A DNA stretch of 64,000 nt from positions 4,960,001 through 5,024,000 of the forward strand of contig NZ_CP129613.1 of NCBI RefSeq assembly GCF_030486405.1, read 5' to 3'. Positions 23,855 through 25,327 of the stretch are shown one piece after another. Within the stretch, counting starts at the first letter, position 1. Every line of letters begins with the position of its first letter. The notes under the pieces are model-generated. The model made no database searches and was not told the origin of the DNA. It saw nothing but the letters and a program-made list of their open reading frames with translations. This DNA comes from Mycolicibacterium sp. HK-90. Its GTDB lineage: Bacteria; Actinomycetota; Actinomycetes; Mycobacteriales; Mycobacteriaceae. Both the position numbers and the translations under genes were made by a program.

Positions 23855-24223
23855 TCACACGTGGCCGGCGGCCACCAGCGCGTGATAGCCGCCGACGACA
23901 TCGGTGGACCGGTGCAGGCCCAGATCCAGCAGCGCGGCGGCGGCCAGGCTCGAGGTGTAACCCTCCGAGCACAGGATCACCCAGTAGACGTCGTCGTCGA
24001 CGGCCTCCGGGATCCGTGCGTCGCTGGTCGGATCGCAGCGCCACTCCAGCACGTTGCGCTCGATGACCAGCGCGCCGGGCACCGACCCCTCGGCGGCGCG
24101 CTGAGCAGCCGGGCGGATGTCGACGAGGACCGCGCCGGAATCCAACGCGGCGGGCAGATCTGAGGCAGGCAGCCGGTCCAGGCGGGTGCGGGCCTGCGCC
24201 AGCACGGTGTCGATGCGGCTCAT
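23855..24223 (-). CDS. Rhodanese-like sulfurtransferase
   Basis: 122 aa single rhodanese domain. The active-site loop is CSEGYTS with catalytic Cys85, preceded by LVDIRPAAQRAAEGSVPGA, the usual substrate-side motif. It would carry a persulfide sulfur. GGAGGG lies upstream of the ATG, 2 bp after the cysteine dioxygenase stop, so it is the second gene of a two-gene cysteine-sulfur operon. A longer in-frame reading to 24394 overlaps the dioxygenase and lacks a ribosome-binding site. Confidence 0.9.
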   Translation of the reverse strand: MSRIDTVLAQARTRLDRLPASDLPAALDSGAVLVDIRPAAQRAAEGSVPGALVIERNVLEWRCDPTSDARIPEAVDDDVYWVILCSEGYTSSLAAAALLDLGLHRSTDVVGGYHALVAAGHV

Positions 24224-24225
24224 CG

Positions 24226-24750
24226 CTATCCCTCCGGTGCGTCGGTGAGTTCGGTGCGGTTGCGGCGCAACGTGTTCTGCGGCGTCACCTCGTAGTAGGA
24301 CATGGCGGTCAGCGGCGGCGAGTAGGCGTGCACACTCAGCGTCGGCCCGGTCGCCGTGACGGGCCCGGGTGCCTTGACCACATCGTGCACCCACCCCAGC
24401 GGGAAGGCGGCCTGGTCACCGGCGGTGAGCCGTCGGTGACGCAACAGCTCACCATCCCAACGTGTTTCGGCCAGTTCGCCGGAGACCACCGTCAGCGCGC
24501 CAAGCGACCCGCCGTGATCGTGTAGTTCGGTCGACTTGTCGGGCACCCAGCTGATCAGCCAGACCTCGACCTCGTCGTCACCGGACAGCCGGGTGTACCA
24601 CCGGTCGTGGGTCGGCAGCCCCCGCAACAGCCGGTCATAGCGGCCGGACAACACGTCGTCGGCGGCGCGGTCGGTGGTGTGCAGCAGATCGGGCAGCCGC
24701 AGCCGGGTGGGCGCGGAGACGGCAGGAACGGACGCGAGCGTGGACAGCAT
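24226..24750 (-). CDS. Cysteine dioxygenase
   Basis: 174 aa cupin. It oxidises cysteine to cysteine sulfinate with O2 and Fe(II). The metal site is visible: His77 and His79 in ELHDHGGS and His122 in LGWVHDV; the late SVHAYSPPL motif contains the conserved His141 and Tyr143 of the family. TGGAG lies 9 nt before the ATG. It is followed 2 bp later by the rhodanese gene. It is preceded by a 14-codon leader ORF with two adjacent Cys codons (24796-24840), which suggests cysteine-responsive control. Confidence 0.9.
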   Translation of the reverse strand: MLSTLASVPAVSAPTRLRLPDLLHTTDRAADDVLSGRYDRLLRGLPTHDRWYTRLSGDDEVEVWLISWVPDKSTELHDHGGSLGALTVVSGELAETRWDGELLRHRRLTAGDQAAFPLGWVHDVVKAPGPVTATGPTLSVHAYSPPLTAMSYYEVTPQNTLRRNRTELTDAPEG

Positions 24751-24795
24751 CAGAGAAGCTCCAGAAATGACGGCGGAACAGGGAAGAGGGGCGCG

Positions 24796-24840
24796 CTAGC
24801 GAGCCCGACAACACCTCTGCGATCCGGTCCGTTCCGTCAT
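24796..24840 (-). CDS. Cys-Cys leader peptide ORF upstream of cysteine dioxygenase
   Basis: 14 aa: MTERTGSQRCCRAR, then TAG. It begins 90 nt upstream of the cysteine dioxygenase ATG on the same strand. The two neighbouring TGT codons near its end are the feature expected of a cysteine-sensing attenuator; polycysteine leader ORFs controlling sulfur genes are established in mycobacteria. No Shine-Dalgarno is seen, consistent with a leaderless start. Its RNA can pair with downstream sequence: the start region (24831-24840) with bases just before the dioxygenase ribosome-binding site, and GGGCTC just after the Cys codons (24801-24806) with GAGCTT covering that site. It is too short for normal gene callers. 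Confidence 0.6.
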   Translation of the reverse strand: MTERTGSQRCCRAR

Positions 24841-24856
24841 GGCGGCCAGTGTTGCA

Positions 24857-24862
24857 TAGATT
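24857..24862 (+). promoter_or_regulatory. Candidate leaderless promoter of lpqV
   Basis: TAGATT ends 6 nt before the lpqV ATG. On the opposite strand TATGCA (24852-24857) could serve the leader ORF, so the two promoters would overlap in the 28-bp divergent spacer. Confidence 0.5.
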
Positions 24863-24868
24863 GGCTGC

Positions 24869-25327
24869 ATGCGCAGTTACACGTGGACCGCTCGCCTGAC
24901 CGCCGGAACCGTCGCGGCCGCCGGCCTGAGCCTGCTGATCGGGTGCTCGACCGAGGCCGACAAGGATCAGGCCGGGGAGCCGGCGGCACCGTCCGCACCG
25001 GCCACCACGACGGCCGAGGCGGCGCCCCCGACGGTCAAACCCGGTGAGGTCGCGGTGTCCCCCGGCGGGGTCACCACGGCGGTCGGCGCCGACGCGCAGT
25101 CCACCGAAGAGGAGTACTTCCAGGCCTGTCACGCCGCGAAGACCTGGATGCAGGCGAAGGGCGGGGATCTCAAGGCGCAGGTCGAGCCGTACCTGGCGAG
25201 CCTGCAGGCCCCTGACGCGACACCCGGTCCGGGCACCTACAACGTGGCGTGGGCGCAGCTCGAGCCGCCCCGCCAGGCCGCCGTCATCGTGGCGGCGCAG
25301 GCCGCGGCCGACGAGCTCTGCAGCTAG
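24869..25327 (+). CDS. lpqV: Lipoprotein LpqV
   Basis: 152 aa. A signal peptide ends in the lipobox LLIGC (Cys at residue 28), so the mature protein is lipid-anchored outside the cytoplasmic membrane. A Thr/Ala/Pro-rich linker follows, then a conserved domain (VAVSPGGVTT, STEEEYFQACHAAKTWMQ, ARQAAVIVAAQAAADELCS-like ending) that I recognise from Rv1064c. Function unknown. Divergent from the cysteine leader ORF; its stop overlaps the SulP gene stop by 4 bp on the opposite strand. Confidence 0.88.
   Translation: MRSYTWTARLTAGTVAAAGLSLLIGCSTEADKDQAGEPAAPSAPATTTAEAAPPTVKPGEVAVSPGGVTTAVGADAQSTEEEYFQACHAAKTWMQAKGGDLKAQVEPYLASLQAPDATPGPGTYNVAWAQLEPPRQAAVIVAAQAAADELCS

Follow-up and report, generated by a model that had tools for sequence, protein, structure and literature searches.

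A conserved Cys-Cys leader ORF as a candidate cysteine-sensing switch upstream of a predicted cysteine dioxygenase operon in mycobacteria and related genera

Can a short ORF that ends in two cysteine codons sense cysteine on behalf of an operon that breaks cysteine down, and in which direction would it switch that operon? The question arises from a 64,000-nt stretch of genomic DNA (the window; all coordinates refer to it), in which the initial annotation had placed a 14-codon Cys-Cys ORF in front of genes for cysteine dioxygenase (CDO) and rhodanese. Reading of the minus strand bears this out. The small ORF (sORF) encodes MTERTGSQRCCRAR, its start lies 90 nt upstream of the CDO ATG at 24750, and 45 nt separate its stop codon from the CDO start.

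A Cys-Cys leader ORF and its conservation

The leader, its operon and the neighbouring gene comprise the following features.

24796..24840, minus strand: leader sORF, MTERTGSQRCCRAR followed by a stop; 14 codons, ATG start at 24840, TAG ending at 24796, apparently leaderless
24808..24813, minus strand: tandem Cys codons TGT TGT (codons 10-11), the proposed sensor; Cys in 97 and 96 of 106 motif-anchored leaders
24848..24853, minus strand: -10-like element AACACT, presumed leaderless promoter, with the start codon 7 nt downstream
24226..24750, minus strand: predicted cysteine dioxygenase (CDO_I cupin; PF05995, 44.2 bits)
23855..24223, minus strand: rhodanese-like sulfurtransferase (PF00581, 35.9 bits), 2 nt after the CDO stop
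24869..25327, plus strand: lpqV, divergent lipoprotein gene (PF17301, 146.5 bits)

The gene downstream of the leader scores above the cut-off for the CDO_I family, has its motifs intact and is predicted to encode a cysteine dioxygenase. It aligns with PDB chains named cysteine dioxygenase at a best E value of 7.2e-12, and the protein has no NCBIfam match. The motifs HDH, VHDV and S[VL]HAY are present in 20/20 aligned sequences, and an arginine in YTRL or its equivalent in 18/20, being absent in Nocardioides. We take these motifs to be the metal-ligand histidines and the Ser-His-Tyr set, and the arginine to be a mark of cysteine-specific enzymes; Rv1065 is presumably the M. tuberculosis orthologue. 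By CDO, the closest named relative is Mycolicibacterium houstonense (99% identity; L031), in a search that may omit near-identical records. Rhodanese lies downstream of CDO in 35 of 37 loci, and lpqV is matched in 30 of the 37. A SulP-family transporter gene (PF00916; 25327-27030) is convergent with lpqV and adjoins the operon; the transporter gives a strong match in the flank of 18/37 loci (L031-L044, L046-L048, L053) and a weak one in L045.

The sequence around the start codon suggests that the sORF is leaderless and sits at the 5′ end of the operon mRNA. The distance from the end of the upstream motif ATGC[AC]A..CT to the start codon is 7 nt in 103 of 108 sequences and 6 nt in the other 5. 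In the program-made ORF list this frame opens further upstream, with an ATG at 24870. A generic sigma-70 scan of 24650-24950 called no promoter, the -10-like element included, and Rfam returned no family match up to E 1 within 24200-25000. On the plus strand, TAGATT (24857-24862) lies 6 nt before the lpqV ATG, so both divergent genes look leaderless and appear to share a promoter region of ~28 bp.

CDO is present in 275 of the 297 genomes of the genus. We pooled 167 loci, made up of 30 genus matches, 37 loci from a named collection and 100 fetched regions; six of the 37 (L061, L063-L067) come from Nocardia, Gordonia or Nocardioides. The idea of a conserved, apparently leaderless Cys-Cys ORF before a CDO-family gene holds across this set, as an sORF ending in CC stands upstream of CDO relatives in 146 of 152 distinct sequences. 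The six exceptions are two Nocardioides loci that lack a leader (L066, L067) and four loci with single or non-adjacent Cys codons (L065, L110, L112, L158). In a cysteine-blind test, leaders were anchored on the motif ATGC[AC]A..CT alone, so that ORFs were not picked by their cysteines. The motif occurs in 111/152 sequences, and 106 of these have ATG (30) or GTG (76) 7 nt downstream; in the remaining 5 the start seems, by reading, to lie one base earlier. Counted from this anchor, Cys falls at codon 10 in 97 of the 106 leaders and at codon 11 in 96, which shows that both the start and the Cys codons are kept in relatives.

These cysteines are nearly always encoded by TGT (96/97 at codon 10, 95/96 at codon 11), while codon use in the 34 window ORFs of at least 200 codons with high GC3 is TGC 80 versus TGT 17. 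The residues on either side of the pair vary in Mycobacterium, with E, D, W, G, R, Q and others before it and R, A, P, Q, W, G and others after it. The bases directly before the Cys codons (24814-24817) read GGAG, a Shine-Dalgarno-like sequence, in 38 of 68 leaders of the thinned set described below, and GAGG in the window; GGAG at this place might add to ribosome pausing.

At the level of the family, 146 of 201 genomes and 26 of 31 genera have a CDO match, some of the matches being weak. A CC sORF is present in 45 of 60 upstream regions from other genera (16/22 genera), mostly with the ending QECCRG, and the first Cys is codon 10 in 31 of 41 other-genus leaders, a count that leans upward as the start was chosen nearest codon 10. 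The 15 family regions without a CC sORF are L238, L241, L254, L260-L265 and L285-L290. In one genus (g30), CDO appears by reading to lie downstream of another gene. Three leaders (L063, L064 and L244; g9 or Gordonia) have an extra Cys and the ending MCMCCR, and their Cys codons are kept despite differing surrounding bases.

The leader is also tied to CDO by its distribution. A profile built from 40 leaders (A1/R1) and run against 60 genus genomes gave a match at E <= 1.4e-4 in 57, with the next match at 4.6e-4, and the leader apparently occurs in one copy per genome. Comparison of coordinates by eye in 33 genomes placed it at the 5′ end of CDO every time; among the remaining 24 profile-matched genomes, G002 has no CDO match. 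We also searched 20 of the 22 genus genomes that lack CDO, several of which are incomplete assemblies, and found no strong leader match in 17 and a leader or remnant in 3. In L321 an intact CC leader ORF runs straight into a rhodanese remnant and no CDO was detected; L323, whose leader was taken from the ORF list, has a disrupted Cys frame and likewise no detected CDO; and in L322 the leader match is partial, the pattern finds no CC sORF, the rhodanese is split in two, and all that resembles CDO is a 21-residue stretch (E 1.6). These three cases, which are anecdotal, fit a leader that decays after CDO is lost.

Base pairing within the leader

The elements considered for pairing, and the spacer between them, are listed here.

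24803..24806, minus strand: GGGC, 5′ arm of a hairpin around the sORF stop; co-varying arms, z -8.0
24789..24792, minus strand: GCCC, 3′ arm of the same hairpin; co-varying arms
24834..24840, minus strand: sORF start AUGACGG, complementary to CCGUCAU at 24773-24767
24767..24773, minus strand: CCGUCAU, putative partner of the sORF start, just before the CDO Shine-Dalgarno (SD); cognate-versus-swapped duplex test
24759..24762, minus strand: GGAG, SD of CDO, without a clear co-evolving partner in Mycobacterium
24763..24795, minus strand: C-rich, G-poor spacer from the sORF stop to the SD, a possible rut or standby site; C/G ratio

On its own, the window leader folds unremarkably (-29.8 kcal/mol, z -0.15 versus shuffles), and the mean z of leader folding energy over 68 leaders is -0.91. 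As folding energies are unremarkable, we tested co-evolution instead, comparing the duplex energy of a leader segment with its own partner and with the partner from another genome, in non-overlapping windows. With an ordinary fold and a negative sigma-70 scan in the window, the case rests on comparison between genomes. Of the 152 loci, the structure tests omit the 6 that lack CC and, from the other 146, 7 with no assignable leaderless start, which leaves 139 leaders, 132 of them distinct. Swap permutations do not remove relatedness; the set was thinned to 68 leaders of less than 85% similarity, and shuffles of each leader's own composition were added. For other genera, 41 of the 60 regions were used, 15 being omitted for want of a CC sORF and 4 for want of an assignable start or SD.

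One co-evolving element is a hairpin that spans the sORF stop codon. Its arms form at least 4 Watson-Crick pairs in 91 of 113 leaders; with swapped partners (200 swaps) the mean was 52 and the highest count 64, and the duplex test gives z -8.0 with 0/2000 swaps both for the 68 leaders and for the 41 other-genus leaders. The arms change jointly, as in CGGGC/GCCCG, CGGC/GCCG and CGAGGC/GCCTCG. A second pairing, which had been proposed between the ORF start and the bases just before the ribosome-binding site (RBS), also finds support. The sORF start (0-20) and the segment SD-22..-2 co-evolve at z -6.2 (0/2000 swaps, 68 leaders), and this signal is weaker in other genera (z -2.5, 14/2000, 41 leaders). 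Both pairings beat own-letter shuffles, with a mean z of -1.54 for the start and pre-SD bases (-0.64 in other genera) and -1.20 for the hairpin (-2.96 in other genera), against -0.19 and -0.23 for the negative control; in the swap test the negative controls had z values of -1.6, +1.0 and +0.2. Segments from the middle of the presumed long pairing (sORF 12-27 with SD-30..-15) show no co-evolution in the 68 leaders (z 0.0), and we therefore claim the long-range pairing for its two ends only. RNAalifold returned no structure from a plain MAFFT alignment, a probable reason being that the position of the hairpin arms shifts as the sORF varies in length.

The initial annotation had further proposed that GGGCTC, right after the Cys codons, pairs with GAGCTT over the RBS. 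Both sequences exist in the window (24806-24801 and 24761-24756), and as a conserved element of Mycobacterium the pairing fails, with 1810 of 2000 swaps as good or better (z +1.3). Against own-letter shuffles its mean z is -0.21 in the 68 leaders and -0.27 in other genera, not above the negative control, and in other genera the swap test detects a weak cognate signal (z -2.4, 14/2000). Such a pairing would imply the usual sign, in which stalling turns the operon on, because GGGCTC would be hidden under a ribosome positioned at the Cys codons, leaving the RBS free. The converse arrangement, in which the freed 3′ arm masks the SD upon stalling, was also rejected, as cognate sequences are less complementary than swapped ones (z +3.8).

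Intrinsic termination of the trp type was likewise discarded. No terminator-like site was found at 24650-24950, and among 146 leaders a U-rich stretch follows the hairpin in just 1 of the 124 that have a hairpin of at least 4 pairs (L017). Folding with the ribosome absent, stalled at the first or second Cys codon, or at the stop gave no consistent change in SD accessibility over 132 leaders (mean unpaired probability 0.21 free versus 0.20 stalled). The same procedure found no SD change in 27 nirA and 7 cysA2 leaders used as positive controls; being silent on known cysteine attenuators too, it has no power here and weighs neither for nor against a switch.

Some genera contain further arms. In a Nocardia-like genus (g23; L061, L272-L276), a second CGAGGC-like arm follows the CGAGGC/GCCTCG hairpin, and several of these leaders then read CCTCGACC. 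By reading, these arms form an alternative-pairing set like that of a trp attenuator (tandem 1-2-3-4), with no obvious U-run. Genus g22 has, also by reading, a similar GCCTCG..GAGGC repeat.

Mechanism and sign of the proposed switch

Comparison between genomes strongly supports the sORF as a putative cysteine-sensing leader for CDO, and it supports the leader, its start, the Cys codons, the hairpin and the long-range pairing as its likely parts; the 5′ end of the mRNA, the stalling itself and the sign of its effect we infer. In the mechanism that we propose, the first base of the mRNA would be the A of the sORF start codon ATG, and a ribosome would initiate at this extreme 5′ end. Codons 10-11 (TGT TGT) would then gauge the availability of charged tRNA-Cys. 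When it is present, the ribosome would go three codons further to the stop and depart, and the leader would close: the sORF start would pair with bases just ahead of the CDO SD, and a small stem would form about the stop codon. When it is lacking, the ribosome would stall on the Cys codons and cover the 5′ arms, leaving a long unpaired C-rich spacer before CDO. The likeliest route to the off state would be Rho loading on the exposed spacer, or the loss of ribosomes delivered from the sORF.

As to the sign by itself, we put cysteine as on and starvation as off at slightly better than an even chance, and judge it the likelier direction because the operon destroys cysteine. The complete reading, in which the leader senses charged tRNA-Cys and acts with this sign through Rho loading or lost sORF ribosomes, we hold tentatively, at just under an even chance. 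The composition of the spacer bears on it. Over 146 leaders the spacer is 50% C, 19% G, 9% A and 22% T, and its median C/G ratio is 2.56 (132 leaders), compared with 1.0 for 18 intergenic upstream control regions from the window; the ratio is 1.39 in nirA and cysA2 leaders and 2.5 in 32 other-genus spacers. By its sequence the spacer looks like a Rho-loading site, and equally like an unstructured ribosome standby site. If exposed, it could admit Rho. The accessible portion of one study calls Rho-dependent termination the dominant mechanism in mycobacteria (PMC11260477), and the abstract of another reports Rho acting together with translational control at a uORF-bearing leader (PMC12810186). 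A reversed polarity is plausible, favoured by metabolic logic and by the C-rich, G-poor spacer, and the SD without a clear masking partner in Mycobacterium also speaks for cysteine as on. In its broadest form, the proposal would be an inverted-sign switch across many genera, with a starvation stall exposing a C-rich Rho-loading spacer and ending transcription, so that the operon is made only when cysteine is plentiful; we regard this form as possible and rather unlikely.

The main alternative keeps the same leader and gives it the usual sign. The closed leader would hinder ribosome access to CDO, a stalled ribosome would open it, and CDO and rhodanese would rise in starvation; the joint task of these enzymes would then be sulfur scavenging (thiol to sulfinate to sulfite) and not the disposal of excess cysteine. 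Precedent and standby-site reasoning favour this sign. If the leader closes over its own 5′ end, the CDO SD could be left without a standby site, which would predict starvation as on, and mycobacterial polycysteine leaders reportedly switch genes on when the ribosome stalls (Canestrari, 2020). The 5′ end and the pre-SD bases do co-evolve as a pair, and in other genera the 5′ arm has its weak cognate signal with the SD (z -2.4). The visible text of PMC13236596 is consistent with starvation-on working of polycysteine leaders and describes a translation-attenuation mode for cysteine genes that this alternative matches, and cys-rich uORFs are proposed as attenuators in the portion available of PMC4633059. 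Against it, the SD itself has no clear co-evolving leader partner in Mycobacterium, and the CDO motifs are as expected, with the presumed cysteine-specific Arg in 18/20, so that induction in starvation would be wasteful of cysteine. We consider the usual sign a substantial possibility, though short of probable.

A third explanation holds that the sORF is translated and conserved for general coupling or transcript protection, such as shielding from Rho, and that cysteine is not the relevant signal. There is a mycobacterial example, as PPE2 expression in M. tuberculosis needs translation of the ppe2 uORF, a case for which the accessible sections discuss Rho and coupling and favour reinitiation over Rho (PMC11260477). 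General coupling leaves unexplained why Cys persists at codons 10-11 (97 and 96 of 106) amid drifting flanks, and why the Cys codons are kept in the divergent Gordonia leaders ending MCMCCR, and we think it improbable. Less probable by far is an arrest peptide, in which nascent QECCR would sense free cysteine directly and stall in excess, as TnaC does with tryptophan. The QECCRG ending is nearly invariant in many genera other than Mycobacterium and CC is followed within a few codons by the stop; against this, the residues around CC vary in Mycobacterium, and the bases that follow CC also serve as a hairpin arm. That the sORF is a chance ORF without function would suit a window leader that folds no better than shuffles, and it is dismissed by the conservation of the start and Cys codons in relatives.

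Whichever sign holds, the leader extends cysteine-codon leaders beyond the sulfur genes reported in the literature we surveyed to a gene for cysteine breakdown, and beyond Mycobacterium to other genera of the family (16 of 22 sampled). If the sign is inverted, a lack of charged tRNA-Cys would raise cysteine synthesis and lower its breakdown through leaders of the same general design. This would amount to a push-pull circuit read by ribosomes alone, and to a codon-reading attenuator in which stalling means off. If CDO instead rises in starvation, the accepted role of the enzyme would be in doubt here.

Comparison with known leader systems

A 2015 paper (PMC4633059), of which the legend of Fig 7 and portions of the text were available, described Cys-rich leaderless uORFs at cysA2, Rv0485 and nirA; the three loci in that legend do not include CDO. 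Six such sORFs in M. tuberculosis are mentioned in the available text of PMC9094748, where names are not given. Among the records it listed, our literature search met no title or abstract pointing to a CDO leader; supplementary tables and the 2020 primary study lay beyond its scope, and an earlier listing there is possible.

The CDO leader resembles the mycobacterial polycysteine attenuators (cysA2/Msmeg_5788, nirA/Msmeg_4527, Rv0485/Msmeg_0932) in being an apparently leaderless short ORF with Cys codons at its C-terminal end, the first ORF of a sulfur-metabolism operon, and conserved across mycobacteria. TGT-rich Cys codons are common to the CDO and nirA leaders, the latter having TGT 81 versus TGC 24. 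The CDO leader is shorter than these attenuators, about 14 codons versus about 30, with 2 Cys codons versus about 4-7. Its gap to the next start is 45 nt, versus medians of 116 or 191 nt in nirA/cysA2 leaders, and its spacer is more C-rich than theirs. It has a conserved hairpin around the stop codon, a feature examined in CDO leaders only. In the genome of the window itself (G000), the end of a leader with seven Cys codons lies upstream of an sseC-like (PF07210) locus (L178, 1-42); by reading, the CTGTTGT in this leader end is the complement of an ACAACAG that adjoins the next ORF's GGAG, and the CDO leader is built differently.

Trp-type attenuators such as the M. tuberculosis ilvB1 leader, as described in part of PMC13236596, share with the CDO leader the tandem cognate codons and, beyond them, pairings that would be set by ribosome position. 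They differ in their terminator, since no U-run follows the CDO-leader hairpin in 123 of 124 leaders.

The E. coli tnaC leader precedes the tryptophanase operon and encodes an arrest peptide that stalls at high free tryptophan. The CDO leader has in common with it a leader ORF before an operon degrading the same amino acid and a candidate Rho site after the stop codon. TnaC-like leaders are marked by conserved residues beyond the sensed amino acid; in the CDO leader the flanking residues vary in Mycobacterium and are near-constant in part of the other genera. Unlike in TnaC, only the Cys codons of the CDO leader are strictly constrained in Mycobacterium, so that a lack of charged tRNA-Cys would be the expected signal. 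Unlike the polycysteine attenuators, the CDO leader precedes an operon that consumes cysteine.
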